Below are positions 12,455 through 40,074 of a stretch of 44,733 bases of DNA, in pieces. Origin of the DNA: Alphaproteobacteria bacterium. GTDB taxonomy: Bacteria > Pseudomonadota > Alphaproteobacteria > SP197. Position 1 is the stretch's first letter. Every line of letters begins with the position of its first letter. The translations under genes were made by a program, and so were the position numbers. The notes beneath the pieces were generated by a model, which was given only the letters and a program-made list of their open reading frames with translations, was not told where the DNA came from and searched no databases. Where the stretch lies: contig VGDP01000025.1 in assembly GCA_016869675.1 (NCBI GenBank), forward strand, positions 1 through 44,733, given 5' to 3'.

Positions 12455-12460
12455 GGCGCC

Positions 12461-14682: not shown

Positions 14683-14691
14683 GAACCCGCC

Positions 14692-15519: not shown

Positions 15520-15521
15520 CC

Positions 15522-19889: not shown

Positions 19890-20920
19890 CAAACGCGAAG
19901 AGGCGCGACTTCCGCGCGCCAGAGCCTCAACTGGACGGCAAGTCGATCCTGGTGACGGGCGGCACGGGCTCCTTCGGCCGACGCTTCGTCCGCACGGTTC
20001 TGGACCGCTACAAACCCGAACGGCTGATCGTCTTCTCGCGCGACGAGTTGAAGCAGTTCGAGATGCAGCACGAGCCGGGATTCGAGGGCCATCCGGCGCT
20101 ACGCTTCTTCCTCGGCGACGTGCGCGACGACGGCCGATTGGAAATGGCCTTGCGGGACGTCGATATCGTCGTCCATGCGGCCGCGCTCAAGCAAATCACC
20201 GCGGCCGAATACAATCCTTTCGAGTGCATCCGGACAAACGTGCACGGTGCCGAGAACCTGGTGCGCGCGGCCCTGCGTGCCGGCGTCCGGCAGGTTGTGG
20301 CACTGTCGACCGACAAGGCCGCGAATCCGATCAACCTCTACGGAGCGAGCAAGTTGGCGTCGGATAAGATTTTCATCGCGGGCAACAATCTGGCGGGTGT
20401 TGCGCCGACGCGCTTCGGTGTCGTCCGCTACGGGAACGTGATCGGTTCGCGCGGCTCGGTGGTTCCATTCTTCCGAAAACTCCTTGCCGACGGCGTGACC
20501 GCACTGCCGGTCACGGACGAACGCATGACCCGGTTCTGGATCACCCTTCAGCAAGGCGTCGACCTCGTGCTGTCCACGTTGGTCCTCATGCGCGGTGGGG
20601 AAATCTTCGTGCCGAAAATACCCAGCATGCGCGTGATCGACCTTGCCGCGCTCATGTCGCCGGGGACGGCCCCGCGCTTCATCGGCATCCGGCCCGGCGA
20701 GAAGGTGCACGAGGCGCTCATCGCCGAGGAAGAGGCGCGCAACACCTACGATCTTGGCGATCGCTACGTGATCGCACCGTCGTTCCGGTTCTGGTCCGCA
20801 GATGGGCTCGACCCGCGGGCGCGGCCGATCGGCGACGAGTCCTTCAGCTACATGAGCAACAACAATTCCGAGTGGTTGAGCAAAGGGGAGCTGGAGGCGC
20901 TCCTCGCGGAGACCCCGTGA
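19886..20920 (+). CDS. pseB: UDP-GlcNAc 4,6-dehydratase (5-inverting), PseB family
   Basis: First step of pseudaminic-acid synthesis: UDP-GlcNAc to UDP-2-acetamido-2,6-dideoxy-beta-L-arabino-hexos-4-ulose. The 344-residue extended SDR has VTGGTGSFG at 23-31, AALKQI at ~99-104, STDKAANP (141-148) and the Y152-x3-K156 motif in YGASK, then RYGNVIGSRGSVVPFF, MTRFWITL and GIRPGEKVHE. These are PseB/CapD-type hallmarks, and the aminotransferase PseC follows at once. A ~15-residue N-terminal extension precedes the Rossmann fold. Confidence 0.92.
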   Translation: MTNAKRRDFRAPEPQLDGKSILVTGGTGSFGRRFVRTVLDRYKPERLIVFSRDELKQFEMQHEPGFEGHPALRFFLGDVRDDGRLEMALRDVDIVVHAAALKQITAAEYNPFECIRTNVHGAENLVRAALRAGVRQVVALSTDKAANPINLYGASKLASDKIFIAGNNLAGVAPTRFGVVRYGNVIGSRGSVVPFFRKLLADGVTALPVTDERMTRFWITLQQGVDLVLSTLVLMRGGEIFVPKIPSMRVIDLAALMSPGTAPRFIGIRPGEKVHEALIAEEEARNTYDLGDRYVIAPSFRFWSADGLDPRARPIGDESFSYMSNNNSEWLSKGELEALLAETP

Positions 20921-22137
20921 TGACGGACCGCGTGCTCGGATACGGCCAGCAGCATATCGGGGACGATGACGTGGCCGCGGTGGTTGCCGCGCTGCGCGGC
21001 GAGTTTCTGACCACCGGTCCCGCCGTCCAAGCCTTCGAGACCGCGTTTGCCCGCGCGGTCGGCGCGCGCCACGCCGTCGCCTGCATGAACGGAACCGCCG
21101 CTTTGCACCTTGCGGCGCTTGCCCTCGATCTGAAGCCGGGTGACTGCGCGATCGTGCCCGCCGTCACCTTCCTCGCCACCGCGAACGCCGTGCGCTACGT
21201 GGGCGCGGAACCCGTGTTCGCCGACGTGGACGCGAACACGGCACTCATGTCGCCCGAGCATCTGGAAGCCGCCATCGTCCGCGCGCCATCGCCTCCCAAA
21301 GCGGTCTTCCCCGTGCACATCGGCGGCCCAAGCTGTGACATGGCCGGGATTGCCGCGGTGGCCGCACGCCACGGCATGACGGTCGTCGAGGACGCGTGCC
21401 ACGCCCTCGGCACAACGGGAGATGGCGCGGGAATGCCTTTCATCGCGGGCGACTGCCGGTGGAGCCGAATGACGGTCTTCTCCGCGCACCCCGTGAAGAT
21501 GATGACCATGGGTGAGGGCGGGGTCGTGACGACGAACGAGGCGCACACCGCGAAGCGCCTGGCGCGCCTGCGCAACCACGGCCTCGTGCGCGACGCGACC
21601 GACTTCACGGTGCGCGAACAGGCCTTTGCGGCCGACGAAAGCGCGAATCCTTGGTACTACGAGATGGACGAGGTTGGATTCAATTATCGGGCGAGCGATC
21701 TGCAGTGTGCCCTCGGATCGAGCCAGCTCGCGAAGCTCGACCGCTTCGTGGAACGCCGGCGCGTTCTTATCCGCCTCTACGAGGAAGCACTGCGCGATGC
21801 GCCCGTTCGCGGCATCGAGGCGGAGACTCGGAATTTCGGTCAGCGCGTGGGCTGGCATCTGTTCCGCATCCGCGTGGACTTCCGGGCGCTGGGCTGCGAC
21901 AGGGCGGCCTTCATGCGCCGCCTCTTGCGCCGCGGGGTGGGCAGCCAAGTGCACTACATGCCGCTTTACCGGCATCCCTACTACGCGCGGCGCTGGAACC
22001 GACAAGGCTTGCCGGGGGCTGAGGCCTACTACGCGGGAACGCTCAGCCTGCCGCTTCACTGCAACATGACGGACGGGGATGTGGGCCGCGTCGTCGCGGC
22101 CATCGCCGAAGCGGCCGAGCCGGGGCCCCACGCGTGA
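20920..22137 (+). CDS. pseC: UDP-4-amino-4,6-dideoxy-N-acetyl-altrosamine transaminase, PseC family
   Basis: PLP-dependent DegT-family aminotransferase that aminates the PseB product at C4. The 405-residue protein has the PseC start VLGYGQQHIGDDDVAAV, the AVACMNGTAALHLA segment at ~52-65, VEDACHALG, and the catalytic Lys193 in SAHPVKMMTMGEGG, the PseC-specific form of this motif. MDEVGFNYRASDLQCALG and the late SLPLHCNMTDGDV are also typical. ATG 20920 is chosen; GTG 20917 is an alternative. The cytidylyltransferase gene overlaps its stop by GTGA. Confidence 0.92.
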   Translation: MTDRVLGYGQQHIGDDDVAAVVAALRGEFLTTGPAVQAFETAFARAVGARHAVACMNGTAALHLAALALDLKPGDCAIVPAVTFLATANAVRYVGAEPVFADVDANTALMSPEHLEAAIVRAPSPPKAVFPVHIGGPSCDMAGIAAVAARHGMTVVEDACHALGTTGDGAGMPFIAGDCRWSRMTVFSAHPVKMMTMGEGGVVTTNEAHTAKRLARLRNHGLVRDATDFTVREQAFAADESANPWYYEMDEVGFNYRASDLQCALGSSQLAKLDRFVERRRVLIRLYEEALRDAPVRGIEAETRNFGQRVGWHLFRIRVDFRALGCDRAAFMRRLLRRGVGSQVHYMPLYRHPYYARRWNRQGLPGAEAYYAGTLSLPLHCNMTDGDVGRVVAAIAEAAEPGPHA

Positions 22138-22811
22138 CGAGCGTCGTCATCGTGCAGGCGCGCATGGGCTCGACGCGTCTTCCTGGCAAGGTGCTGATGT
22201 CGCTCGGCGGCCGGACCGTGCTCGACCACGTCCTCGTGCGCTGCAAGGCCGTGGCAGCGGATGCGGTTTGTCTGGCCACTTCCACTCTGGCACGGGACGA
22301 CGCCGTGGCGCGCGAGGCGACACGGCTCGGGGTTCATGTCTTTCGCGGCGACGAGCATGACGTTCTTTCGCGCTACCACGGCGCGGCGCGCGAACTGGGC
22401 GCCAGCGAGGTGCTGCGCGTGACGGCGGACTGTCCGCTCATCGACCCGGAGGTGTGCGCGCAGGTGATCGCGAGGCGCCGGAATGCGGGCACAGACTACG
22501 CCTGCAATTTCTCGCCGCCGAGTTTTCCGCACGGCCTCGATTGCGAGGCCTTCACCATGGAAACGCTCGAGCGCGCCCAGCGCGAGAGCAAGACCGCCTA
22601 TCAGCGCGAGCACGTGAGTGTCTGGATGATCGAATCGCCCGACATCACGAAGGCCAATCTCGCCAATCCGGGCGCCGATGCCTCGTGCCACCGCTGGACG
22701 CTCGACACGCCGGAGGATTACCGGTTCCTGAGCCAGGCCTTCAACGCGCACGCCGAGGCGCTCGCCTCCATGCGCTGGCGCGATCTTCTTCGGGTCCTTC
22801 CACGGCACTAA
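22134..22811 (+). CDS. SpsF-type cytidylyltransferase (PseF role)
   Basis: A 225-residue nucleotidyltransferase of the SpsF/glycosyl-cytidylyl family: VIVQARMGSTRLPGKVLMSLGG at the N-terminus, ATSTLARDDAVA, FRGDEHDVLSRYH, RVTADCPLIDP (metal-binding Asp) and RWTLDTPEDY. In Pse clusters of some bacteria this family takes the place of NeuA-like PseF and makes CMP-pseudaminate. The GTG start overlaps pseC. Together with neuA at 16490 this gives one CMP-activating enzyme for each nonulosonate module. Confidence 0.82.
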   Translation: MTSVVIVQARMGSTRLPGKVLMSLGGRTVLDHVLVRCKAVAADAVCLATSTLARDDAVAREATRLGVHVFRGDEHDVLSRYHGAARELGASEVLRVTADCPLIDPEVCAQVIARRRNAGTDYACNFSPPSFPHGLDCEAFTMETLERAQRESKTAYQREHVSVWMIESPDITKANLANPGADASCHRWTLDTPEDYRFLSQAFNAHAEALASMRWRDLLRVLPRH

Positions 22812-22828
22812 CCGGAGCGACTGCCGAC

Positions 22829-23692: not shown

Positions 23693-25458
23693 ACGAACGG
23701 AGGCTGCCGTTCGCCCTGGTCTACGACCGCGCGGACGCCGAATCGTTTTCCAAGGAGCGGCCGGCCGCCCGTTCGGTCTGTGCGCTTTCGCCCGCCGCGC
23801 GCGTCGCCCTTGCCCGCGACGCCATCCCATGCATCGACGGCCTGAGCCGGTACGGCGATTGCGCGCACGCCCAGACCATCGTCAAGCGGGAACGGCTCCG
23901 GGCGCGGTGGCAGGTGGCGCTCGAACCGCTGCGTCCGACATTCGCCGAATGGCACATGTTGGATATCGCGTTCGTGACACTGTTCAACGGGTTCGACCGG
24001 ATCCGCAGGATCGCCGGGCCGGATGGCCCGTGGCTGGTTCGGGTAGACGGGGTATGGACGCGGCACGAGGAACGTGCGGCGGCTAGCCTTGCGATGACCC
24101 ATCACATCATGGACCGCTACTGGCATTCATTTGGCAACTTCAAATTCAGGCCGCCGCCCTTGCCCTGGCTGTATCGCGCGTTGCGGGCCGCGCTCATCCT
24201 CGCCGGCCGGCGCCGGGCGCCCAGTTGGGTCGCGACGCGGTCGGATCATCCGCTTGGCCTGGAGCGCGCGCTCGCACGGACGCGGCCCGGGTTGCGCCAA
24301 TGGCATATGTCGTGCGCCGAGGACGGCGCGTGGGAGTACGCGCGCCTCGTTCGCGAAATGTGGCGAAGCCTGGCCGGAGCGTTCCAAATCCAGCTGCGCG
24401 CCGTTCCACGCCGGGGGGCGCATATCGAGAAGCGGTTCAGGCAAGCGCTCGAGTGCTTTCCGGATCCGGATTGCCGTGCGCTTCTGGGAAGTTTCTCCGC
24501 CCAGATCTTCAGGACGTTCGAGATCGCCGCCGGCGCCGAGGTTGAATTTTCGGCGATGCTGGGACGGATCAGGCCGGCATTCATGCTGTCCAGTGAAATC
24601 AGCGACGGGCTGACGGCCGCACTGTTCTCGTCGTGCGGCGAGAAGGGCGTGGCGCGGACGATCGCGAGCCACAACAGTTTTGCGCCGGTCGGCGGAGGGG
24701 TGAACGCGCTGTCGCTGCGCGACCAGATTGGGCACCAGTACGCGGACGGACGAGCCGAGGCAATGCTGTTCTGGACGCCGTCGGCCTATGCGGCGGCCAG
24801 CGGCGCATTTCCGGGCCGCCCATTGTCCCTTCTCTCCGCCTTGCCCCCGACGGCCCGCGCGGAGGCCAGAACGCCCGGCCCCTTCATGGTCTTGCACGCC
24901 AGCAACTGCCTGCGGTTCTTCTCGCGCGCAGACTGGATCTACGAGAACGTCGACGAGTTCGTCGCCGGCGCCGTCGCATTGATCGGCGCGGGTTTGACGG
25001 TGGACGGCACGGCCTATGTCCTTCGCACCAAAGTACGGCGATACGAGATGGACGAGGCGACACTGCGCGCCATGCTACCCCCGAGCGAGCGCGTCGAGAT
25101 CGCCTTCCGGCACACCAGGCCCTTCGCAGAGGACCTTGCGCGTGCCGATCTGCTCGTGGCGTTCCGTTCGACGACCATAATGCAGGCGCTCTATGCCCGG
25201 AAACCGGTGCTGCTCTGGGGCATCACGCCACGCTACCGGGAACTGAACGGCCGCGAGACGCCACCCACATCTGGCGACCGTGCCGCCGTGTACAGCGTGC
25301 GGCGCGCGGAGGCTCTCGGCCCCATGCTGGCCGGAATCCGGAACGCGCACAGGGGGGCGCCGCTCACCGACGAGGAGCTCGCGCCCTATCTCGTGCCGCC
25401 CGGCGCGATGACGGTCGACCAATGGGCCTGCACATGCCTCGCGCCGCGTTCCGCCTAG
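23689..25458 (+). CDS. Large putative glycosyltransferase, unassigned
   Basis: A 589-residue cytoplasmic protein I cannot place firmly. Its C-terminal part has a GT-B-like donor-site pattern, LVAFRSTTIMQALYARKPVLLWG, comparable to the Ser/Thr-rich loop plus Pro-Val of the capsule-type glycosyltransferase at 7670 and of the protein at 35919. The N-terminal ~240 residues carry several Arg/Trp-rich helices (RALRAALILAGRRR may be membrane-associated). The start is TTG 23689, overlapping the methyltransferase stop; the frame is open upstream but only in that gene. Its end overlaps pseG by 25 bases. Position inside the pseudaminic module suggests it transfers that sugar. Confidence 0.6.
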   Translation: MNERRLPFALVYDRADAESFSKERPAARSVCALSPAARVALARDAIPCIDGLSRYGDCAHAQTIVKRERLRARWQVALEPLRPTFAEWHMLDIAFVTLFNGFDRIRRIAGPDGPWLVRVDGVWTRHEERAAASLAMTHHIMDRYWHSFGNFKFRPPPLPWLYRALRAALILAGRRRAPSWVATRSDHPLGLERALARTRPGLRQWHMSCAEDGAWEYARLVREMWRSLAGAFQIQLRAVPRRGAHIEKRFRQALECFPDPDCRALLGSFSAQIFRTFEIAAGAEVEFSAMLGRIRPAFMLSSEISDGLTAALFSSCGEKGVARTIASHNSFAPVGGGVNALSLRDQIGHQYADGRAEAMLFWTPSAYAAASGAFPGRPLSLLSALPPTARAEARTPGPFMVLHASNCLRFFSRADWIYENVDEFVAGAVALIGAGLTVDGTAYVLRTKVRRYEMDEATLRAMLPPSERVEIAFRHTRPFAEDLARADLLVAFRSTTIMQALYARKPVLLWGITPRYRELNGRETPPTSGDRAAVYSVRRAEALGPMLAGIRNAHRGAPLTDEELAPYLVPPGAMTVDQWACTCLAPRSA

Positions 25459-26453
25459 ACGCCGGCGCGGCGTTGGGCGTGGGACACCTGGCGCGTGCCT
25501 CGGTTCTGGCCGGCGCCTTGGCGGAGCGCGGCTGGACGACGACCCTCTACGGCCAGCGCGAGACGGCGTCTCTTGCCGCATCGTTCCCGGCCTTCGCCGA
25601 GACCGTGGCGCTCGAGGACGCGCGCGGGGCCGACGCCACGGCGATTCCGGCCGCCCACGACCTCGCCGTCATCGATCACTACGGCCTCGACGCCGTGTAC
25701 GAGTCCGCCCTCCGCCGGCGGGTGGGCACCCTGCTCGCGTTCAGCGACTTCCCCGACCGCGACCACGACTGCGACGGCTTGGTGGACGCCAATCTGGGCC
25801 GCCGCGCCGCGGACTATGCGGGCCACGTGCCGCATGGCTGCACGGTCATGGCCGGGTCGTCCTTCGTGCTGCTACGCTCCGTCTACCGAGCACCTTTCCG
25901 TTCGGCGCGCGACACGCGGTGCCGCGCGCGGAACGTTCTACTGACCTTCGGCGGCGGTGATCCGGCGGACGCCACGGGCGCCGCCCTCGCCACGCTGCGC
26001 GCGCATGCGCCGGTCGAATGGCGCATCCGCGCCGTGCTCGGCCCCGCCTATCCGCGCAAAGATTCGATCGCTGCCTTGGCCCGGGAATGGCCGTCGCTCG
26101 ACGTGGACGTGGCGCCGGCCGATCTGCGCGCGGCGTTCGCGTGGGCGGACGTGGCGGTAACCGCCTCGGGCGGAACCTGCTGGGAGCTGTGCCACGCGGG
26201 CGTGCCCTTCGCCGTCGTCACGGGCGGCGCGGTCGAAAACACCAATGCCCGGCACCTCGCGGAGCGCGGCTGCGCGCTCGACCTCGGGACGGTCGCCTCG
26301 CTCGGCGACCGGCGGTTCGTCGAAGGGCTGGACGCGCTCATGCAGGATGCGGCCGCGCGCCGCCGGATGGCCGAGGCCGCGCGCACCCTCATCGATGGGC
26401 GCGGCGCGGAAAGAATTTGCGATTGGATCGAGGCTTTGTCATGCGCACACTGA
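25434..26453 (+). CDS. pseG: UDP-2,4-diacetamido-2,4,6-trideoxy-altropyranose hydrolase, PseG family
   Basis: Releases UDP from the PseH product before condensation with PEP. The 339-residue GT-B-fold protein begins with AFRLDAGAALGVGHLARA (D9, G17-H18), the PseG signature, and has VIDHYGLD, FSDFPDR, LLTFGGGDP, and the C-terminal SGGTCWELCHAGVPFAVVTGG and ENTNARHL motifs. ATG 25434 is preferred over 25422 because it fits the family N-terminus. It overlaps the upstream glycosyltransferase by 25 bases and the next synthase by 13. No PseH acetyltransferase is fused or adjacent. Confidence 0.88.
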   Translation: MPRAAFRLDAGAALGVGHLARASVLAGALAERGWTTTLYGQRETASLAASFPAFAETVALEDARGADATAIPAAHDLAVIDHYGLDAVYESALRRRVGTLLAFSDFPDRDHDCDGLVDANLGRRAADYAGHVPHGCTVMAGSSFVLLRSVYRAPFRSARDTRCRARNVLLTFGGGDPADATGAALATLRAHAPVEWRIRAVLGPAYPRKDSIAALAREWPSLDVDVAPADLRAAFAWADVAVTASGGTCWELCHAGVPFAVVTGGAVENTNARHLAERGCALDLGTVASLGDRRFVEGLDALMQDAAARRRMAEAARTLIDGRGAERICDWIEALSCAH

Positions 26454-27490
26454 AATTCGGACACCGGACGATCGGCGACGGACAACCCTGCTTCGTCATC
26501 GCCGAGGTGGGCATCAACCACAACGGCCAGGAAGACCTGGCGCACCGGATGGTCGACGCCATCGCGGACGCGGGCGCGGACTGCGTCAAATTCCAGACCT
26601 TCTCGGCCGAGGAATTCATGAACGGGCCCGACCAGCAGATGGAGTACGTCTCCCAGGGCCAGGTCGTACGCGAATCCATGCTGGCGATGTTCAAGCGCTA
26701 CGAGCTTCAGTCCGAGTCTTTCTCCCGCCTGTTTGAGCACGCGCGAGCGCGTGGCCTGGTTCCCCTGTCGACGCCCACGGACACAAACGCGGTCGATCTT
26801 CTCGACCGCATCGGCATCGGCGGCTTCAAGATCGGCTCCGACGATCTCGTCTACACACCGTTCCTCGAATACGTCGCGCGCAAGGGAAAGCCCATCATTC
26901 TGTCCACCGGCATGGCGGACGCCGCCGATATCGAGCGCGCGGTTTCCACCATCACGAAGTCGGGCAACGACAGGATCGTCATCCTCCATTGCGTGTCTGT
27001 TTATCCAACACCCGATGAGGACGTGAACCTGCTGCGGGTCCGCACCTTGCGCGACCAGTATCCAGGACCCATCGGCTATTCCGACCACAGCGCCGGCATC
27101 GTCGCCGCCTTGGGCGCCGTCTCGCTCGGCGCATCGGTGATCGAGAAGCACTTCACGATCGACAAGGACTTGCCGGGCCCGGACCATCACTTCTCCGCCG
27201 ACCCGTCCGAGCTTCGCGCCATGGTGCAGGGTTTGCGTGCGCTCGAGGCGCAGATGGGAAGCCCGCGCCTCCGCCCGGCGCGCGGCGAGGCGGAAATGGC
27301 GGCGATCGCCCGGCGCTCGATCGTCGCGAACCGGGACCTCCCGAAGGGCCACGTGGTCGCACCGGAAGACCTAAGCTACCGGCGGCCAGGTACGGGGCTC
27401 ATGCCGTACGAGCGTGATCGGCTGATCGGTCGGCGCACGCGCCAGGCCGTCGGGGCCGACACCCAGTTCACGCTCGCCATGGTGGAATGA
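26441..27490 (+). CDS. pseI: Second NeuB-family synthase (pseudaminate synthase role)
   Basis: A 349-residue PEP-dependent nonulosonate synthase with VIAEVGINHNGQ at ~19-30, VKFQTF, PLSTPTD, FKIGSDDLVYTPFL, ILSTGMADAAD, HCVSVYPTPDEDVNL, GYSDHSAG, EKHFTIDKDLPGPDH and a SAF domain with RRPGTGL. It is not a recent copy of neuB at 10809: the barrel loops differ throughout. In sequence it resembles general NeuB proteins more than the short-loop Campylobacter PseI, so the role is assigned mainly from the adjacent pseG. It starts at ATG 26441 inside the end of pseG. Confidence 0.8.
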   Translation: MRTLKFGHRTIGDGQPCFVIAEVGINHNGQEDLAHRMVDAIADAGADCVKFQTFSAEEFMNGPDQQMEYVSQGQVVRESMLAMFKRYELQSESFSRLFEHARARGLVPLSTPTDTNAVDLLDRIGIGGFKIGSDDLVYTPFLEYVARKGKPIILSTGMADAADIERAVSTITKSGNDRIVILHCVSVYPTPDEDVNLLRVRTLRDQYPGPIGYSDHSAGIVAALGAVSLGASVIEKHFTIDKDLPGPDHHFSADPSELRAMVQGLRALEAQMGSPRLRPARGEAEMAAIARRSIVANRDLPKGHVVAPEDLSYRRPGTGLMPYERDRLIGRRTRQAVGADTQFTLAMVE

Positions 27491-29680: not shown

Positions 29681-30643
29681 GTGGCCGACGCCTATCCCGA
29701 GGTCACCCAAGCCGCGCCCGAGCGGGCCTGGCCGGCGCTCGCCCAATGGGCAGCCGCCCTCGTGGGTACGTGGCTCGTCCTCGCGTCGTTCACGGCGCTG
29801 GTCGACCCCTATGCCTTCACCGGCGCGCCGCGCGTTCCGGGCTGGACCGAACGGAAATACGAGATGGCGGAGTTCGGCCGCGTGGCGAAGCTGCGCGAGG
29901 TGGCGCGGCTCAAGCCCACGGCGATCGTGCTCGGCAACTCGCAGGCGGAGGGCGGCTTGCGCACGGCCACGCTCGAACGATTGACCGGCCTGGGCGCCTA
30001 CAATCTCGGCTTCCTGGGCGCTCGCATCGAGGAGACGGCCGTCGCCTTCGAGCACGCCCTCCGCGTGGCGCCGGTCAGGACGGCAGTGCTTGCCCTCGAC
30101 TACGTCGCTTTCGAGCCGGCGGAAGAGAGGGCCGTCCTTCTCCGCGCGCGCGCGGAGCGCCGCATCGGACGCGAGGCGCGCGACCTGGCCGATCTGACAT
30201 TCAGCATGCAAGGCTTTCTCGCCGCTGTACGCGGCGTGACGCTCAACCGGATGGGAGGCGTGCCCACCCATGACGGCCGCGGAAATTGGTCCGCGCGCCA
30301 GCCCGTCGCCATCGACGACGCGGCCGTACCGGTTGCGACCGTGCCGCCGGCGGATGGCGCCTATGCGGCATTCGAGGCGATCTGCCGCGCGGCGGCCGAA
30401 CGCGGCGTGGATTTGCGCCTTGTCGTCATGCCCGTGCACAAGGCCTTCGGCCTGGACATGGAGATGCGGGCCAGGTGGGTGGCGCGCCTTGCGGCCATCG
30501 CGCAGAGCCACGGCTTCACCCTGCACGACGAGGGTGGCGACCTCGCCTTCAACGCGGACAAGTCCCACTTCATCGACCGCGGACATGTGAGCGTGGCCAT
30601 CGGCGATGTGATCCTCGACCGCCTGTTCGGCGCCGCACGCTAG
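29681..30643 (+). CDS. SGNH-hydrolase-like partner of the MBOAT protein
   Basis: A 320-residue protein with one N-terminal membrane segment (~22-42) followed by a periplasmic-type domain. IVLGNSQAEGGL (82-93) is a GxS-type SGNH block I and the C-terminal DKSHFIDRGHVS has the Asp-x-x-His arrangement of block V. Such proteins act with MBOAT acyltransferases as AlgJ/AlgX or DltD do, transferring the acyl group to the glycan outside. The GTG start lies two bases after the MBOAT stop. Confidence 0.75.
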   Translation: MADAYPEVTQAAPERAWPALAQWAAALVGTWLVLASFTALVDPYAFTGAPRVPGWTERKYEMAEFGRVAKLREVARLKPTAIVLGNSQAEGGLRTATLERLTGLGAYNLGFLGARIEETAVAFEHALRVAPVRTAVLALDYVAFEPAEERAVLLRARAERRIGREARDLADLTFSMQGFLAAVRGVTLNRMGGVPTHDGRGNWSARQPVAIDDAAVPVATVPPADGAYAAFEAICRAAAERGVDLRLVVMPVHKAFGLDMEMRARWVARLAAIAQSHGFTLHDEGGDLAFNADKSHFIDRGHVSVAIGDVILDRLFGAAR

Positions 30644-30654
30644 GGAGAACGGAC

Positions 30655-31158
30655 ATGGATGCGGCCGAATTCAAACGGATGTTCCTGGCGATGATGTCCA
30701 ACAAGGACAACCGCTTCCATCCGCTCGTATGGATCAACGGCGATCCCGTCGTGGGCGAAGGCACCTATATCGGCGGGCTTAGCGAGCTGAACGCCAAGGG
30801 CGCGCGCGTGGCGATCGGGCGGAACTGCGACATCGCGTCCTTCGTGGCGATCAACGTGGCTGATAGCCACAAGCGCAACATCGGCGTTTCCCCTTCCAGC
30901 GACATCCGCGACATCACGATCGGCGACAACGTGTTCATCGGCTCGCACGCGGTCATCCTGGGCGGCACGGTCATCGGCGACAATTCGGTGGTGGGCGCCG
31001 GGACCGTCGTGCGCGGGCTGAAGGTGCCGCCTTACTCGCTGGTCGTGGGCAATCCGGCGGTCGTGAAGCCGGGCTACTATCGGCGCAAGAAGCCGGCCGC
31101 GCGCAAGACCGCGCGCGTGCGGGCACGACGCGCGAAGGCCCGCCGCCGGACGTCATGA
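30655..31158 (+). CDS. Hexapeptide-repeat acyltransferase with basic tail
   Basis: A 167-residue left-handed beta-helix acetyltransferase: ITIGDNVFIGSHAVILGGTVIGDNSVVGAGTVV is a clear run of hexapeptides, and the PPYSLVVGNPAVV cap is typical. The catalytic His is probably in the VADSHKRN loop. The last ~25 residues are Lys/Arg-rich (RRKKPAARKTARV...), a tail without a known function. A good GGGAG site lies 7 bases before ATG 30655. It overlaps the DegT gene by ATGA. Likely O- or N-acetylates a sugar nucleotide; it could supply an acetyltransferase step (PseH or LegH) that is otherwise missing. Confidence 0.8.
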   Translation: MDAAEFKRMFLAMMSNKDNRFHPLVWINGDPVVGEGTYIGGLSELNAKGARVAIGRNCDIASFVAINVADSHKRNIGVSPSSDIRDITIGDNVFIGSHAVILGGTVIGDNSVVGAGTVVRGLKVPPYSLVVGNPAVVKPGYYRRKKPAARKTARVRARRAKARRRTS

Positions 31159-32219
31159 CACCCATCGCCCACAACAAGCCTTGGATCACCCGGGACGACG
31201 TAGCGGCAGTCGACGCCTTGCTTGAGACACGCTGGCTCGCCCCCGGACCCGAGACGGCCGCGCTCGAACAGGACTTCGTCGCGCTGCACGGCGGCGGCGG
31301 CGCGTGCGCGGTGTCCTCGGGAAGCGCGGCGCTCTTCGTCGCGCTCAAGGCTCTTGGCATCGGTCCGGGCCACCTCATTGCGATCCCCACCTATGTGTGC
31401 ACGGCGGTGCTCAACGCCATCGCTCTGTGCGGCGCCGAGCCCGTCCTCGCCGATATCGACGGCGAACGGTTCAATATCGACCCTGCCGCCATGGCGGCAA
31501 TGGCGCGCAAGCCGGATGCGGCGATCGCGGTCCATACCTACGGCGCGGCAGCGGACGTGGCGGCGCTCCAACGCCTTTGCCCTGTCGTCGTCGAGGATTG
31601 CGCCCAAGCCATCGGCGGCGTCGATTCCGAGGACCGCCCCTTGGGCACGACAGGCACGGTGGCGATCCATTCGTTCTATGCCACCAAGATCGTCACAAGC
31701 GGGCATGGCGGGATGGTTTATGCCCGCGACGGGAAGGCGGCGGCGGCGGCGCGCGACTATGTTCTCTTCGACGGGCGCGAAAGCTGGAAGCCGAGGTTCA
31801 ACTTCCAGACGACCGATTTCCAGGCCGCCCTCGCACGGCGGCAACTGGCGCGTCTCGATGCGATCGCGGCCAGGCGCCGCGCGATCGCCGCCGCCTATCG
31901 CGCCGCGCTGCCCGCGGGCTATACGCTGCAGGCGGGTATCCACGGCCCGCGCGACATGCCGTATCGGTTCGTGGTCCGCACGCCGGACGAACGTGTGCGC
32001 GACGCGCTCAAGGCCCATTTCGCATCGCGAGACATCGGCGTCATCGTGCCCCTCGAGACTTTGGAGCTTCTGCACCGCTATCTCGGCATGCCAGCGTCGG
32101 CCTTTCCGACCGCCGAGCGGGTCGCGGCGACGACGCTTTCCTTGCCGCTCTATCCCGCGCTCCGAGACGACGAGGCGCGCCGCGTCGCCGATGCGCTCGC
32201 GGAGGCGCCGAAGCCGTGA
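31155..32219 (+). CDS. DegT/DnrJ/EryC1 family aminotransferase
   Basis: A 354-residue PLP-dependent sugar aminotransferase: AVSSGSAALFVALKAL at ~52-67, VEDCAQAIGG, and the PLP Lys178 in SFYATKIVTSGHGG. These enzymes aminate keto-sugar nucleotides. Together with the acyltransferase upstream and WbqC downstream it would make an N-acyl amino-deoxy sugar. It might be the missing LegC-type aminotransferase, but the keto-sugar substrate is unknown. It overlaps the WbqC gene by GTGA. Confidence 0.85.
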   Translation: MTPIAHNKPWITRDDVAAVDALLETRWLAPGPETAALEQDFVALHGGGGACAVSSGSAALFVALKALGIGPGHLIAIPTYVCTAVLNAIALCGAEPVLADIDGERFNIDPAAMAAMARKPDAAIAVHTYGAAADVAALQRLCPVVVEDCAQAIGGVDSEDRPLGTTGTVAIHSFYATKIVTSGHGGMVYARDGKAAAAARDYVLFDGRESWKPRFNFQTTDFQAALARRQLARLDAIAARRRAIAAAYRAALPAGYTLQAGIHGPRDMPYRFVVRTPDERVRDALKAHFASRDIGVIVPLETLELLHRYLGMPASAFPTAERVAATTLSLPLYPALRDDEARRVADALAEAPKP

Positions 32220-32932
32220 TCCTGACCGCGCACCAGCCGACCTATCTTCCTTGGCTCGGCCTGTTCCACAAAATCGCCGTGGCGGACATGTTCGTGTCCT
32301 TCAACCAGGTCCAGTACGAGGTCAAAAGCTGGAGCAACCGCAACCGCGTCAAGACCTCTACCGGCCCCATCTGGCTGAGCGTACCGGTCCTCAAATCCGG
32401 TTTTCTTCAAAAGTCGATGTCGGAGATCGAGATCGACAATACGTCGTCCTGGGCGCGCAAGCATTGGAAGTCGCTCGAGATGCTCTACAAGCCCGCGCCG
32501 TATTTCGCGCACTATGCGGATTTCTTAGAGGACGTCTACCTGAAGCGCACGTGGCGGACTTTGGTCGAACTCAACGAGCACATGCTGCGCTGGTTCATGG
32601 CCGAACTCGGCATCAAGACCCCGTTCCGCTCCGCGGCCGACTATGCCTTCCAGGGCACGAAGTCGGACCTGGTCCTGGACATGTGCGTGCAGTTGGGTGC
32701 GCGAACGTACATCTTCGGCGCGCAGGGGCGTGACTACGCGGACGTCGCCGCCTTTCGCGCCAAAGGCGTGGAGCCGCTGTTCCAGGACTACCGGCATCCG
32801 AGCTATGCCCAGCGTTATGGCGCCTTCGTGCCGAACCTGAGCGTGGTGGACCTCCTCTTCAATTGCGGGCCGGCGAGCCTGGACATCCTGATGTCGGGCA
32901 ATCTGGGCCGCGGCGACCTCGCAGCAGCTTGA
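32216..32932 (+). CDS. WbqC family protein
   Basis: A 238-residue WbqC-like protein: the N-terminal LTAHQPTYLPWLGLFHKIAVAD, the QYEVKSWSNRNRVKT segment, and later the YIFGAQGRDYAD and FQDYRHPSYAQRYGAFVPNLSVVDLLFNCG regions are strongly characteristic. WbqC proteins occur in O-antigen and amino-sugar clusters and are thought to add an acyl or aminoacyl group to sugar amines; the mechanism is unsettled. The GTG start overlaps the aminotransferase. It is the last gene before the AT-rich gap. Confidence 0.85.
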   Translation: MILTAHQPTYLPWLGLFHKIAVADMFVSFNQVQYEVKSWSNRNRVKTSTGPIWLSVPVLKSGFLQKSMSEIEIDNTSSWARKHWKSLEMLYKPAPYFAHYADFLEDVYLKRTWRTLVELNEHMLRWFMAELGIKTPFRSAADYAFQGTKSDLVLDMCVQLGARTYIFGAQGRDYADVAAFRAKGVEPLFQDYRHPSYAQRYGAFVPNLSVVDLLFNCGPASLDILMSGNLGRGDLAAA

Positions 32933-32953
32933 AAATTCAAATAATACAATGGC

Positions 32954-32983
32954 TTGAAAGGGCATTGGTGAAGATTATATATT
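32954..32983 (+). promoter_or_regulatory. Candidate sigma-70 promoter in the only AT-rich gap
   Basis: The 101-bp gap 32933-33033 is strikingly AT-rich for this window. It contains TTGAAA (32954-32959) and, 18 bases later, TATATT (32978-32983); TATATA at 32976-32981 with a 16-base spacer is an alternative. The gene at 33034 follows with a GGAG at 33022-33025. Probably the start of a second transcription unit. I see no convincing hairpin terminator in the gap. Confidence 0.5.
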
Positions 32984-33033
32984 GCAGTGGCACGGTGGCG
33001 GGCCTCGCGCGCCCGGAGCCTGGAGCATAGGGC

Positions 33034-35109
33034 ATGCGGATTTTCCTGGCCGATCTCTGCTATTTGCACGACTGGGACAACAACCAGCCGGTGCCGCTCA
33101 ACATCGGCTATATCGCGGCCTATCTGAAGCGCGAGCGTCCTGGAGACGAGCTCGAGCTATTCAAAGATCCCCGCGACCTGTTGCGTAGGCTGGGCGAGGC
33201 GCCACCCGATATCCTGGCGATGAGCCACTACGACTGGAACGCCAATCTCAATATTCCCATGCTCGCCCACGCCAAGAGCGTGCGGCCCGGAATCGTGAAC
33301 GTGATGGGCGGGCCGAATTTCCAGGCGGGCGACAAAGCCTGGATGACGGAATTCTTCGCCAAGCGGCCGGAACTCGACCTCTATATCAGCGGCGAGGGCG
33401 AAGCGAGCTTCACCAAGCTCGTGCACCTTATCGAGGCCCATGGCGGCGTCGCGGCGATACCGCTTGAGGAACGCCTGTCCTCCTTCTACGCCTTCGATAT
33501 GGCGAGCGGCACCGTGATCCACAATCCCGGGAAGCCGCAGCCGCGTCTCGACCTGAGCACCGTACCTTCGCCCTACCTGAACGGCATGATGGACCCGTTC
33601 CTCAACGATATGCGCTTGGCGCCCATCATCGAGACCAATCGCGGCTGCCCGTACTCCTGCACCTATTGCTGTTGGGGGCAGGCAACCCAATCCAAGGTGA
33701 ACAAGTTCCCGTTGGAAACGGTGACGGAGGAAATCCGCTACGCTGCGCGGGTTAGCAAAAATCCGACCGGATTTTTTTACGTCGCCGACGGCAATTTCGG
33801 GATCTACGAACGCGATCTGGACATCGCCAAGACGATGCAGGAATGCGCGGACGCCCATGGGGCGCCCAAGCGCGTGTTCATCTATTTCGCCAAGAACACG
33901 AACGAAAAGGTGATTCGCATCGCCGAGACGTTGCGAAGCGTCACCTCGATGTCGATGTCGAAGCAGACGCTCAATTCGGCGGCGCTCGAAAACGTCAAAC
34001 GCAAGAACATCCCGATCGCCCAGTACGACCAGCTTCGCAAGGAGTGCGAGAAGCGCGGGATCGAGACGTTCTGCGAGCTGATCTACAGCCTTGCCGGGGA
34101 AAGCGACGAGAGCTTCATCGACGGCGTCATCGAAACCATTCGCGAGGGCCAGCGGGTGACGATGTATCCGCAGCTTTTGATCGCGGGCGCCGAATCAAGC
34201 GCTCCCGAGTACCGGAAGAAGTTCGGTCTCAAGACCGCGTTTCGTATCATTCCGCGATATGTCAGCAGTTACGGCGACATTCACTCGATGGAGTACGAGG
34301 AGATCGTCGTCGAGCACAACGAGATGACCCGCGAGGGGTTCTGGCGCATTCGCCTGTTCCAGTTCCTCGTGACGCTCCTGTCCAGCCAGTCGTTCGCCGA
34401 GTTCAATCGGGCGCTTTCCCGTGCTGGACTCGACTACGGAAGCCTCGCCAAGCTGGTCGCGGGTGACCGCGCCCGCTGGACGCCCGGCCTGGCCGCCCTC
34501 ATCGACGGCTTCCTCGCGGCGGCGCGAGCCGAACTCATCGAGCGCGAGGACGTGAAGCTTCGCTTCACCGCGGAAGACATCGCCGGCGTGCAGAAGCACC
34601 AGTTGGCGCTCATCCCGTATTTCTTCGCGACGTTGGTCGCCCACCGCACCATGCTGGATGACGTAAGGCGCTACCTTGAATCCCTCATCGCCGGCGATTT
34701 CGACGACCGGACCGATCCCGAGGCGCGGAACGAATTGCGTGCGTGCCTCGGCGTCGCCTTTGACAGGATCGTCTGCTACGACCCGCTCGTGCCCGAGAAG
34801 ACCGTCGCCTACGAATACGATTTCGACGCTTGGCTCGCCGCGGATCCGTCCGAGCCCTTGTCGGCCTACCGGACACCCCAGCCGGTCTATTGCGTCTACA
34901 CGCTCGAAAAGAACATCGTCGAACAGCTCGACCGGGCGCGGAAGATCACGGACATGCCCACCGAGGTGATTTACCGTGTGCGCACGAACATCATCGGAGC
35001 GTTGGGAGATCGCGTGTTCGCCTACCGCCGCATGACCGCCGCGGCGGCGGAACGCGACGGGAAGGCAGGCGAAAACCGCGCCCACGCCGATATGGCGGTC
35101 CGACTCTGA
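33034..35109 (+). CDS. Radical SAM protein with B12-binding-like N-terminus
   Basis: A 691-residue protein. Residues ~1-130 have the B12-binding-type fold seen in this radical SAM class (MRIFLADLCY...PLNIGYIAAYLK, NVMGGPNFQAGD, YISGEGEASF), but no DxHxxG cobalamin motif. The [4Fe-4S] motif is C205-x3-C209-x2-C212 (CPYSCTYCCWG). FFYVADGNFGIYERD and SKQTLNSAALENVKRKNIP follow. A C-terminal extension of ~250 residues (from ~440) resembles nothing I recognise. Such enzymes do difficult methylations, epimerisations or rearrangements on sugars or lipids. GGAG lies 8 bases before ATG 33034, and it probably opens the second operon. Confidence 0.85.
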   Translation: MRIFLADLCYLHDWDNNQPVPLNIGYIAAYLKRERPGDELELFKDPRDLLRRLGEAPPDILAMSHYDWNANLNIPMLAHAKSVRPGIVNVMGGPNFQAGDKAWMTEFFAKRPELDLYISGEGEASFTKLVHLIEAHGGVAAIPLEERLSSFYAFDMASGTVIHNPGKPQPRLDLSTVPSPYLNGMMDPFLNDMRLAPIIETNRGCPYSCTYCCWGQATQSKVNKFPLETVTEEIRYAARVSKNPTGFFYVADGNFGIYERDLDIAKTMQECADAHGAPKRVFIYFAKNTNEKVIRIAETLRSVTSMSMSKQTLNSAALENVKRKNIPIAQYDQLRKECEKRGIETFCELIYSLAGESDESFIDGVIETIREGQRVTMYPQLLIAGAESSAPEYRKKFGLKTAFRIIPRYVSSYGDIHSMEYEEIVVEHNEMTREGFWRIRLFQFLVTLLSSQSFAEFNRALSRAGLDYGSLAKLVAGDRARWTPGLAALIDGFLAAARAELIEREDVKLRFTAEDIAGVQKHQLALIPYFFATLVAHRTMLDDVRRYLESLIAGDFDDRTDPEARNELRACLGVAFDRIVCYDPLVPEKTVAYEYDFDAWLAADPSEPLSAYRTPQPVYCVYTLEKNIVEQLDRARKITDMPTEVIYRVRTNIIGALGDRVFAYRRMTAAAAERDGKAGENRAHADMAVRL

Positions 35110-35134: not shown

Positions 35135-35818
35135 ATGACCCGATCCGTCCTCGTCATCGCCGCGCATCCCGACGACGAAATCCTGGGATGCGGCGGCACG
35201 TTGGCGCGCCACGCGCGCGCCGGAGACCGCGTGTCAATCCTTATCCTCGGCGAGGGCGCCACCTCGCGTGCCGACGCGAAGGCCGGCGATGTCGCGAACC
35301 TGCGCGACGCGGCCGAGCGCGCCGCAAGAATCCTGGGCGCGTCGGCGCCGCGCTTCGCCGGCCTGTCCGATAACCGGCTGGACACCGTGGCGCTACTCGA
35401 CGTCGTCAAGTGCATCGAGGAGGAAGTGGCGGCGAGGAATCCCGCCGTCGTCTACACCCATCACGGCGGCGACTTGAACATCGATCACCGCATCGCGCAC
35501 CAGGCGGTCCTCACGGCGTGCCGGCCATTGCCGGGGTCGGCTGTGCGCTCGATCTACGCCTACGAGACGCCGAGCAGCACCGAGTGGAGCGACGTGGCGA
35601 TCGACAGCGCTGGCTTCCGCCCGACGCGGTTCGTCGATATCGGCACGGATCTCGATGCCAAGCTGGCGGCGCTCGAGTGTTACGCCTCAGAATTGCGCGC
35701 CTTTCCCCACCCGCGTTCGAAGGCGGCCGTCACGGCGCTCGCCCAGTGGCGGGGCACGAGCGTCGGGCTTAGGGCCGCAGAGGCCTTCGTCGTCGTGCGC
35801 GATATCCAGACCCTGTAG
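35135..35818 (+). CDS. PIG-L family deacetylase (LmbE-like)
   Basis: A 227-residue zinc-dependent N-deacetylase. The metal motif AHPDDE is at 10-15 (H11, D13, D14), with HHGGDLNIDHR as the second metal/His motif. Typical substrates are N-acetylglucosaminyl compounds. It lies between the radical SAM gene and a putative glycosyltransferase and may deacetylate an N-acetyl amino sugar of the glycan. The ATG at 35135 follows a 25-base gap. No signal peptide is seen, so it acts in the cytoplasm. Confidence 0.9.
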   Translation: MTRSVLVIAAHPDDEILGCGGTLARHARAGDRVSILILGEGATSRADAKAGDVANLRDAAERAARILGASAPRFAGLSDNRLDTVALLDVVKCIEEEVAARNPAVVYTHHGGDLNIDHRIAHQAVLTACRPLPGSAVRSIYAYETPSSTEWSDVAIDSAGFRPTRFVDIGTDLDAKLAALECYASELRAFPHPRSKAAVTALAQWRGTSVGLRAAEAFVVVRDIQTL

Positions 35819-35918
35819 AACATCCGCCGATCGGCAACCGGTTCTGTCTTTCGCCTTTCCATTCGATGCCGACTCCGGCCGTCTTTCGGACGACTGGCGC
35901 GCACGCGTCGGCTGGCCG

Positions 35919-37434: not shown

Positions 37435-38226
37435 ATGACGGAATTCGGCGCCCATCTCGTGACTCGCAGCGGCCTTGCCGCCGCGCTCGCCGCCGCGGGC
37501 ATCGCGCCGGGCGATGTGATCTGTGTTCACGCGGCGATGGGCCGGCTCGGCTATGTCTGCGGCGGCGCACGGACCGTCATCGAGGCGCTGATGGACGCCA
37601 TCGGCGCCGAGGGCACGCTCATGATGCCCGCCTACACGCGCGATACCGTCGATCCGCGCGAATGGCGCTACCCACCCGCGCCCGCCGCATGGCTCGACGC
37701 GCTGGTCGCGGAGACGCCCGCTTATGATCCGGTACGCACGCCCACCCAGAGCGTGGGTGCGGTGGCGGAGCTCTTTCGCAGCTACCCCGGTGTCCGGCGC
37801 AGCAGACATCCCGTGTCCTCGGTCGCGGCCGCGGGTCCCAAAGCGGATGCGCTGGTCGCCGATGTTCCGCTCGACAACCGTTTCGGCGAGGACTCACCTT
37901 TCGGCCGCCTGGTGCGACTGGGCGGCAAGGCCGTCATGCTCGGCGCGCCCTACGAAACCATGTCGCTTCTTCACCTGAGCCAGTATCGCGTCGGCTGGTC
38001 TGAGCCGGAGACGAAGTCCGCTTGCATGATGGTCAACGGCGAGAGGCGCTGGGTCAATTTTTCGGATGTCCGCTTCCCTCACGACTGGGCGCGCGCGTGC
38101 GTCGACGACATGCTGCGCGACGGGCTTGCGGTTCGGCACACGCTGGTCGAGACGTATCTGCTTGTCGTCGACGCCGCAGCGGCGGTCGATTTTACCGTCG
38201 CCTGGCGGCGCCAGAGGCGCGTGTAG
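37435..38226 (+). CDS. AAC(3)-family N-acetyltransferase
   Basis: A 263-residue member of the aminoglycoside 3-N-acetyltransferase (AAC(3)/YokD) family: VICVHAAMGRLGYVCGGARTV at ~28-48, GTLMMPAYT, RSRHPVSSVAAAGPKAD and FGEDSPFGRLVRLGGKAVMLGAP are the conserved blocks. In glycan clusters this fold acetylates amino sugars rather than antibiotics, so the location argues against a resistance role. The start at ATG 37435 follows a 13-base gap. It is one of four probable acetylating enzymes in the window. Confidence 0.85.
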   Translation: MTEFGAHLVTRSGLAAALAAAGIAPGDVICVHAAMGRLGYVCGGARTVIEALMDAIGAEGTLMMPAYTRDTVDPREWRYPPAPAAWLDALVAETPAYDPVRTPTQSVGAVAELFRSYPGVRRSRHPVSSVAAAGPKADALVADVPLDNRFGEDSPFGRLVRLGGKAVMLGAPYETMSLLHLSQYRVGWSEPETKSACMMVNGERRWVNFSDVRFPHDWARACVDDMLRDGLAVRHTLVETYLLVVDAAAAVDFTVAWRRQRRV

Positions 38227-38235
38227 GATCGGTCC

Positions 38236-40074
38236 ATGATCGGCCTGTTCGGTCTCTATCGACCCGATCCGCGCTTGCCCGCGGATGCGAGCGCCATGGC
38301 CGCGACGCTGCCGGAGGGATACGCGGTGGCCCGGCACGAGCAGGGCGGCGCGGCGTTGTGCCGCGCGGCCCATCCGCACGACGGCGCGGGCTATGCCGAG
38401 TCCGCGGACGGACGCTTCGCCGCCATCGCGCTGGGCGAGATCTTCGGCGCGGGCGGACCTGAGGCCGAACCCAGTCTCGCGGCGCGCGCCGTGGCGCTGG
38501 CGGCATCGGGGCGACTTCGCGACATCGCCCAATGGAACGGGTTGTTCAGCCTGGCGATCCACGACCGTGCCCAGCATCGCCTGACCCTCGCGACCGACCG
38601 GCATGCTAGTTTTCCGATCCATGTGTGGCGATCGGGCGGCGAGCTGGTGTTCGCCGGCCAGATCCGGACGCTCCTGGGCGATGCGCGCGTGCCGCGCCGC
38701 GCGGAACCCGGCGCCATCGCGCAGCTGTTCACCACCCAGCGCACCTTCGGCCGCGCGACGCCGATCGCGGGCATCGAGGCGCTGCCCGCCGGCTGCCTGT
38801 TCGCCTTCGACGGCCGGAACGCCGAGGACCTGCGCCACTGGACCCTCGCCTGGCGAAAGCCGGATTTCACGGAGGCCGAAGGGGCGACGCTCCTGGCGGC
38901 GGCGCTGCGGCGCGCCGCGACAAGGCAAACGGCCGGGCGCGATATCGGTCTCTTGCTCTCGGGCGGCATCGACAGCCGCCTGATCCTGGCGGCGGCGCCC
39001 CGGGGGGCGATGAGCACCTGGACCACGGCGAGCTTCGAGGACAATCCCGAGCTTGCCAACGCGCGTGCGCTCGCGAACGCCCTTGGCGCCGCGCACCATG
39101 CCCTCATCGTGCCCCCGCCCGACACGCTTCCGGTTCTCGAGCGCACCGTCGTCGATTCGAACGGCCTCTATCCCGCATCGACCCCCATGTCGGCGTTCCT
39201 GCCGCGGGTGGGAGCGGCGTGCCGCACGATCCTCACCGGCCATGGCCTCGATTTCACGCTGCGCGGCTATTACCTGCCGGCGCGCTTCGTGGAGATCATG
39301 GGTTCGCGCACGCGCTTGCCGATGCTGCGCCCGATTCCCGGGCGCCCCACGGGCGCGGACGTGCTGCGCTCGCTTCGCCAAGGCCCGCCGCTCGCCACCG
39401 TGGAGCGCATCGCCGCGCCCGGCTGGCGCGACGCGTGGTGGTCGAGCCAGGCGCGCGCGCTCGACGACACGCTCAAGCCCTGGCTCGAATCGGCCGAGCC
39501 TTATGACGCATGGGACGCCTTCATTCTCCACGCGCTGTCCAAGCACTACGCCTTCACCGGCATGATGGCGACGCGCGCGGTCGGCAATCTCCGCATGCCC
39601 GCCTTCGACAACGAGGTGTTCGACATCTATCTGCGCATGCCGCCTGCGTGGCGCTGCAGCGCTCGCATGGTGAAGCGCGCCTTGGTCCTCCTTTCGCCGG
39701 CGGCCGGCGCCATGGCGCAGGCCAATACCGGATTCCGCGCGGATCTCGATCCCAGGCTTGAAATCGGCGCCCTCCTGGGTCGCGCGGCACTTCGCCGCCT
39801 GGGCCTCGCTAAGCGCGCGGCGACGCCCACCAGCTATCACTCGGCGGGCTCGTGGCAGAACATTCCGAGCCTTTACAAGGACGAACCGGGACACAGGCGG
39901 CGCTTCGTCGAGATCAAGGGACGCCTGGACGCGCTGACCTTGGGCGTGCTGGATGCGGGCGCGCTCGCGCGTTGCATCGACGAGCATCTGGAGGGCCACG
40001 CCAAGCACACCAAGCTTCTGCGCCAGTTGCTGACGCACGACGCCTGGGTGCGCGAGTTCGGGATCGCCGCGTGA
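38236..40074 (+). CDS. Asparagine-synthase-like amidotransferase without Cys2
   Basis: A 612-residue AsnB-fold protein. The C-terminal synthetase domain has the PP-loop SGGIDS at 242-247 and later helices of the family. The N-terminal glutaminase domain is present (NGLFSLAIHDRAQHRLTLATDR at ~101-122), but the sequence begins MIGLFG instead of MCGI, so the catalytic Cys2 is absent and it should not hydrolyse glutamine. It might use ammonia or another amine to form an amide on a uronic acid, or adenylate a carboxyl. AGGA lies 7 bases before ATG 38236. It overlaps the next gene by GTGA. Confidence 0.82.
   Translation: MIGLFGLYRPDPRLPADASAMAATLPEGYAVARHEQGGAALCRAAHPHDGAGYAESADGRFAAIALGEIFGAGGPEAEPSLAARAVALAASGRLRDIAQWNGLFSLAIHDRAQHRLTLATDRHASFPIHVWRSGGELVFAGQIRTLLGDARVPRRAEPGAIAQLFTTQRTFGRATPIAGIEALPAGCLFAFDGRNAEDLRHWTLAWRKPDFTEAEGATLLAAALRRAATRQTAGRDIGLLLSGGIDSRLILAAAPRGAMSTWTTASFEDNPELANARALANALGAAHHALIVPPPDTLPVLERTVVDSNGLYPASTPMSAFLPRVGAACRTILTGHGLDFTLRGYYLPARFVEIMGSRTRLPMLRPIPGRPTGADVLRSLRQGPPLATVERIAAPGWRDAWWSSQARALDDTLKPWLESAEPYDAWDAFILHALSKHYAFTGMMATRAVGNLRMPAFDNEVFDIYLRMPPAWRCSARMVKRALVLLSPAAGAMAQANTGFRADLDPRLEIGALLGRAALRRLGLAKRAATPTSYHSAGSWQNIPSLYKDEPGHRRRFVEIKGRLDALTLGVLDAGALARCIDEHLEGHAKHTKLLRQLLTHDAWVREFGIAA

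Follow-up and report, generated by a model that had tools for sequence, protein, structure and literature searches.

A candidate glycan C-methylase of the TokK/CysS type encoded in a pseudaminic-acid-type gene cluster of an alphaproteobacterium

The radical SAM gene and its surrounding cluster

We analysed a contig of 44,733 nucleotides (the window), whose forward strand carries surface-sugar genes and, among them, a gene for a 691-residue radical SAM protein. The gene and those that frame it are as follows.

19880..22811, + strand: PseB and PseC (both over the NCBIfam cut-off) and a cytidylyltransferase read as PseF
25440..27490, + strand: PseG (over the NCBIfam cut-off) and a NeuB/PseI-type synthase (Pfam)
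30640..31158, + strand: hexapeptide acyltransferase, NeuD/PglB/VioB-like, below the cut-off of that model
31155..32219, + strand: DegT/DnrJ/EryC1 sugar aminotransferase (Pfam)
32216..32932, + strand: WbqC-family protein (Pfam), directly 5′ of the radical SAM gene
33034..35109, + strand: TokK/CysS-type cobalamin-dependent radical SAM protein (open reading frame, 691 aa, ATG start)
35135..35818, + strand: PIG-L family de-N-acetylase (Pfam), directly 3′ of the radical SAM gene
37441..38226, + strand: AAC(3)-fold N-acetyltransferase (Antibiotic_NAT; below the NCBIfam AAC_3 cut-off)
38236..40074, + strand: asparagine-synthase-like (AsnB-like) protein that starts MIGLFGLY, its N-terminus without the glutaminase Cys

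PseB, PseC and PseG, all over cut-off in the same locus, link the cluster to pseudaminic acid. The cytidylyltransferase matched only KdsB-type NCBIfam models, all below cut-off, and the synthase scored below the NCBIfam NeuB and PseI cut-offs and above the Pfam NeuB cut-off. No PseH-like GNAT was found among the 26 window proteins scanned with Pfam. The missing glutaminase Cys in the AsnB-like protein presumably points to the use of ammonia or an amine. A TokK-like gene together with an AsnB-like gene lacking this Cys also raised the question of a beta-lactam cluster; we rejected this reading, as no crotonase-type partner was recognised among the scanned window proteins and sugar genes dominate.

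Two separate nonulosonic-acid gene sets are present in the window (10809-17194 and 19880-27490), with one NeuB-type synthase each; the former combines a NeuB-type synthase and NeuC, both over cut-off, with a cytidylyltransferase. Within this sugar locus, the product of 13666-14682 showed a weak BFD-type [2Fe-2S] match (7e-5, below cut-off) and is a possible electron-transfer protein. The protein encoded at 35910-37421 is without a Pfam or NCBIfam match and shares 32% identity over 509 residues with the product of L004:8830-10386, which lies near the radical SAM gene of that relative; it is perhaps a glycosyltransferase of a new family.

The radical SAM gene itself is a true gene rather than a chance frame, given its codon-position G+C (0.60/0.42/0.83 in a window of 68% G+C) and a collinear homologue of 72% identity across 691 residues. 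Its features are listed below.

32954..32983, + strand: promoter-like site TTGAAA-18-TATATT (10/12 consensus match) in the A+T-rich gap before the gene
33034..33528, + strand: N-terminal B12-binding Rossmann domain (about residues 1-165, boundary approximate; Pfam B12-binding sub-threshold)
33235-33237, + strand: codon of Trp68, aligned with TokK Trp76 and CysS Trp75
33601..34323, + strand: radical SAM core (about residues 190-430; Pfam Radical_SAM 200-362 and structure model)
33646-33669, + strand: [4Fe-4S] motif CPYSCTYC (motif scan)
34324..35106, + strand: C-terminal domain of the TokK/CysS substrate-pocket type (residues 431-691; profile and fold of the domain alone)

CPYSCTYC at residues 205-212 is the sole CxxxCxxC in the protein, and with the radical SAM barrel (Pfam Radical_SAM, residues 200-362, E 1.4e-9, above cut-off) it places the protein in the radical SAM superfamily. 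The Pfam B12-binding match at residues 20-129 was sub-threshold (E 4.3e-6; 27.0 bits against a cut-off of 32.1); from residue 1 onwards, the predicted fold matches CysS, TokK, OxsB and TsrM, and a motif scan found no DxHxxG. A B12-binding Rossmann domain preceding the radical SAM domain is the arrangement of class 1 cobalamin-dependent radical SAM enzymes. A further stretch of about 260 residues lies beyond the core. The first-pass annotation, which had reported the cysteine motif at 205-212, a B12-type N-terminus without DxHxxG and some 250 residues beyond the core, thus holds in these points. The protein matched no PHROGs family at E ≤ 1e-5.

That annotation had also taken the gene as the first of a second operon, which is plausible but weakly supported. 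A gap of 101 bp separates it from the WbqC gene, against 25 bp to the next gene, and the promoter-like site was the one match in the scanned region (mean of 0.6 in shuffles). No terminator-like site was found in the 101-bp gap, all five that were found lying within the radical SAM gene, so read-through from WbqC is possible. The WbqC and radical SAM genes (32216-35109) have 61% G+C, compared with 69–71% in six other measured genes; judging by this low G+C, the two were perhaps acquired together.

The C-terminal extension and the cofactor-binding residues

The extension had been described as unassigned, as indeed it looks when a single-sequence search is used: the best relatives in the PDB were TokK (6.6e-52) and CysS (2.3e-41), and the matches to both end at residue 445-462. 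The C-terminal 261 residues alone gave no Pfam match at E ≤ 10. A profile built from 44 family members matched TokK over 22-612 (E 5.3e-133) and CysS over 7-483 only (E 4.2e-98). Furthermore, hhalign paired residues 1-602 with ThnK, up to ThnK residue 609, at a probability of 100. The ThnK sequence was taken from the S. cattleyicolor megaplasmid, where the record is without annotation; we take the open reading frame used to be ThnK.

Structure prediction pointed the same way. The AlphaFold2 model of the whole protein (40 alignment rows; pLDDT 88.3, pTM 0.88), compared by VIA, aligned with TokK (7kdy) at Z 28.9 over 600 residues (3.7 Å, covering 1-670) and with CysS (9n1d) at Z 36.4 over 554 residues (3.8 Å, covering 1-669). 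The extension folded alone (pLDDT 86.2) ranked CysS 411-628 (Z 10.7) and TokK 433-670 (Z 10.5) first; five TokK/CysS entries scored 9.7–10.7, followed by rows at 7.6 and 7.5 and then 3.6. TglHI matched the lone domain weakly (Z 7.6, rmsd 5.5 Å), Foldseek alone returned nothing significant (CysS, E 0.73), and the C-terminal domain is 10–13% identical to those of TokK and CysS. Structural Z values below about 13 may reflect a common arrangement in mostly helical domains, yet we accepted the match because the TokK/CysS rows stand clear of the others, occupy the right position in the chain and agree with the profile. A new fold was considered and rejected, TokK and CysS being the top rows for the lone domain. 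We therefore take the extension to be a diverged form of the TokK/CysS C-terminal substrate-pocket domain. It can no longer be called unassigned: the family it joins has an assigned reaction, which largely settles the enzyme class, whereas the substrate is not covered by this assignment. The CysS counterpart (433-630) forms part of the wall of the substrate channel, and one of its loops moves during the catalytic cycle (PMC12846815).

The residues expected to hold the cofactors are kept. Trp68 pairs with TokK Trp76 and CysS Trp75 at the ungapped start of the phmmer alignments, and these are the residues under the cobalt according to PMC12846815 and PMC13331322. All 42 rows of the family alignment (A1) with a residue at the position of Trp68 have Trp, and 43 of 44 rows keep the three cluster Cys, the remaining one being a contig-edge fragment. 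On the substrate side, CysS Trp206 and Phe238, described as shaping the pocket (PMC12846815), pair in the phmmer alignment with Trp214 and Tyr249; Trp214 is Trp in 19 of the 43 family rows with a letter there. CysS Trp188 and Trp271, which bond the CysS substrate (PMC12846815), are replaced by Leu195 and Phe282. Since TokK has neither Trp at these positions in its phmmer alignment, their loss speaks to the substrate and not to the class. Thus, with Trp68 and the cluster Cys kept and Trp188/Trp271 replaced, the cofactor side is retained and the substrate side differs.

TokK and ThnK, both carbapenem C6 methylases, likewise have three collinear domains, the CxxxCxxC motif, a Trp under the cobalt and a DxNFG motif, and TokK shares the C-terminal fold (the structure was compared for TokK, not ThnK). 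Both are about 26% identical over aligned residues, and in contrast to theirs, the window gene lies in a glycan locus rather than a beta-lactam cluster. CysS, an iterative methylase of cystobactamid, has the same three domains at 22–24% identity. The C-terminal domain after the barrel, of the same fold and in the same position, is what assigns the protein to the TokK/CysS type, at low identity. The best NCBIfam match was the KedN5 model NF033712 (192.1 bits against a cut-off of 700, residues 53-450), which ends shortly after the start of the C-terminal domain. ThnK also falls under this cut-off (272 bits), so it separates subfamilies rather than classes.

These comparisons bear on whether the enzyme methylates at all. 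A cobalamin radical SAM enzyme that instead rearranges, dehydrates or epimerises a sugar would fit the alignment of the first two domains with OxsB (Z 22.7) and AprD4 (Z 23.0), whose chemistry is otherwise; with the five top rows for the lone C-terminal domain all TokK and CysS entries, and with a Trp68 of the TokK/CysS type, we consider such an enzyme improbable. By homology, methyl transfer is most likely, and the chemistry is very probably C-methylation.

Relatives, gene order and linkage to NeuB

Family members were found in 26 of 385 sampled genomes of the class at E ≤ 1e-30 and in 17 of 398 sampled genomes of the phylum at E ≤ 1e-50, the window genome being included in both. In the order of the window organism, one of 16 genomes (its own) had a member at E ≤ 1e-20, which suggests transfer or loss. 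The places counted are a lower bound, as the best two or three candidates were scored per genome. The alignment A1 comprised 43 of 53 homologous open reading frames plus the window protein. Those left out were L075 (internal stop), L046 (contig end), L019 and L049 (duplicates of L072 and L088), and L021, L023, L026, L027, L029 and L050, which were more distant or of odd length; L055 and L056 were included without their N-termini (contig ends). In IMG/VR contigs (L091-L170 kept), at least 571 stretches, among the 600 pattern-matching ones listed, encode relatives of this radical SAM family; an alignment A3 held 37 of 52 non-redundant viral-contig reading frames, and A4 was A3 minus two rows.

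A tree of 53 rows (the 44 of A1, eight viral-contig rows and ThnK) grouped the window protein with L003, L004, L055, L056 and L074, the last on a long branch, at a support of 100/99. ThnK fell outside this group, beyond a 100/100 branch and together with nine other rows, although its long branch and deviating composition make its place unsure. Gene order was then read in these relatives; automatic neighbour clustering merged shadow frames with real genes and served as a hint only.

L003, the 72% homologue, comes from the Rhodopseudomonas MAG RI_341 (genome G755), which also has a Pse cluster in the order PseB, PseC, PseG, PseI, methyltransferase, hexapeptide protein, DegT, WbqC, PIG-L and PseF. 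From the methyltransferase on, this is the order of the window without its MBOAT and DltD-like genes, and the counterparts are 74% (hexapeptide), 45% (DegT), 62% (WbqC) and 57% (PIG-L) identical. The G755 cluster has no radical SAM gene between WbqC and PIG-L, the gene lying on another contig. The protein encoded 3′ of it there is 48% identical to a protein of the G755 Pse cluster between PseC and PseG, and had no significant match to window 35910-37418 or 23701-25455. In L004 (54%), matches occur in the order PseB-PseC-radical SAM-PseF-PseG, with a PseI match further on, and a 58-residue WbqC remnant directly follows the radical SAM gene. The neighbourhood comparison called for at the outset thus returned Pse-type clusters with the same gene order in G755 and with the radical SAM gene in L004. 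L055 (39%) is flanked by genes for a GNAT, a polysaccharide deacetylase, a cytidylyltransferase and an AsnB-like protein; L056 (37–38%) has a NeuA match and, by reading of translations, the same neighbours. The window genome encodes a second TokK-type radical SAM protein (G000:C61:934-2430, L054) of 32% identity; its gene adjoins one for a surf_polysacc protein (TIGR04396, over cut-off), and a NeuA-like match lies nearby.

The position of L003 raises another reading. Its neighbours encode FliM, FliL, two FlgE/F/G-type rod proteins, a FlgA-type chaperone and FlgH, which would suit modification of a flagellin glycan, and Flagellin_N and FlgH do match in G755 and G073. Neither matched in the window genome (G000, listed completeness 100%) or in G194 (88%), and a capsule or LPS sugar is therefore likelier than a flagellin glycan. 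For the window organism we set the flagellin reading aside as highly improbable, provided that its flagellar genes are not simply missing from the assembly. The Maf-type transferase PF01973 had no match in three genomes, but as its control matched in archaea only, this absence is uninformative.

We next compared family places with NeuB (PF03102). NeuB lies within 10 kb of 8 of 59 places (window included) where 0.64 would be expected at random placement, an expectation uncorrected for shared glycan islands or broken contigs; the counts were 9 against 0.95 within 15 kb and 13 against 1.27 within 20 kb. For this comparison, the three weakest of 74 NeuB matches (E above 1e-5) were omitted and genome sizes were rounded. 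At 51 of 59 places, NeuB is absent within 10 kb. PF03102 matched 32 of 40 genomes with the family and 84 of 190 sampled class genomes (the sets overlap), as well as 9 of 14 control genomes, so NeuB is no strict marker. These results indicate that NeuB is enriched near the family without being exclusive to it.

Proposed reaction and candidate substrates

The protein is, as observed, a radical SAM protein with this domain architecture, conserved cofactor residues and linkage to pseudaminic-type genes. We give about even credence to the reading that it is a methylcobalamin-dependent radical SAM C-methylase of TokK/CysS architecture acting on a building block of the cluster's surface glycan. Its predicted build consists of a Rossmann domain for B12, a radical SAM barrel and a C-terminal domain that would bind the substrate. 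By analogy with TokK and CysS, one SAM would methylate cob(I)alamin, with Trp68 presumably positioned under the cobalt, and a second would be cleaved at the [4Fe-4S] cluster of Cys205/209/212 to give a 5′-deoxyadenosyl radical. With the substrate held between the cluster and the cobalamin, this radical would abstract a hydrogen from an unactivated substrate carbon, to which methylcobalamin would then pass its methyl group. The scheme of two SAM, with hydrogen abstraction followed by methyl transfer, is described for TokK and CysS in PMC12846815.

As the gene sits in a cluster for unusual surface sugars, the product is probably a methyl branch on a surface-sugar building block. An unusual sugar or lipid modification had been suggested from the sequence; homology and gene context argue for the sugar part, and no support was found for a lipid substrate. 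That the substrate is a sugar or glycan precursor is fairly likely, whereas its placement within the nonulosonic-acid branch is tentative, at somewhat short of an even chance. Our best guess, drawn from context, is a nucleotide-linked amino sugar or nonulosonic-acid precursor, or its N-acyl group.

The enzyme could instead methylate a small acyl group attached to CoA or to an acyl-carrier protein; once branched, the acyl would pass to a freed sugar amine: PIG-L would remove an acetyl group, and the AAC(3)-fold or the hexapeptide transferase would add the new acyl. A de-N-acetylase and both types of acyltransferase are indeed found in the same region, and in the three TokK and CysS entries with bound substrate, that substrate carries pantetheine rather than a sugar (entry titles). 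In CysS, Asp607 of the C-terminal domain contacts the pantetheine tail (PMC12846815). Asp607 could not be mapped at residue level, the CysS substrate residues are unconserved here, and none of the window proteins scanned was recognised as an acyl carrier or an acyl-activating enzyme; we regard methylation of a carrier-bound acyl group as unlikely.

C-methylation of another sugar in the same glycan, for example one of uronic-acid type amidated by the AsnB-like protein, has precedents. MoeK5 and GenK are B12 radical methylases of sugar antibiotics that C-methylate sugar carbons, and MoeK5 and MoeF in moenomycin reportedly provide a model for a C-methylated, amidated sugar of uronic-acid type. 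The radical SAM gene has an AsnB-like gene nearby in the window, in L055 and, by translation, in L056, but such genes are common in glycan loci, and the window's AsnB-like protein had no match in the G755 stretches examined. Downstream of the radical SAM gene, a deacetylase related to VimE (86 bits against a cut-off of 440) is in keeping with another sugar, as is the naming of MoeK5, along with GenK, as a subgroup member in PMC8992657. Taken together, we judge a sugar outside the nonulosonic-acid branch to be quite unlikely as the substrate.

By architecture, the protein is a new member of the TokK/CysS type, and its use may be new. Literature searches, which did not cover most subscription journals, returned no paper combining radical SAM, cobalamin and pseudaminic acid, radical SAM and nonulosonic acid, KedN5 and radical SAM, or WbqC and pseudaminic acid. 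More broadly, it is conceivable, if doubtful, that a widespread TokK-like branch makes C-methylated nonulosonic acids, or C-branched acyls on them, for proteobacterial surface glycans. If the preferred reading of a glycan C-methylase is true, an enzyme type whose solved members come from antibiotic biosynthesis would also serve ordinary cell-surface sugar pathways, and C-methyl branches would be worth looking for in nonulosonic-acid glycans, where they could alter how phages, lectins and antibodies recognise such glycans. The gene order near the radical SAM enzyme already provides a short list of candidate substrates.
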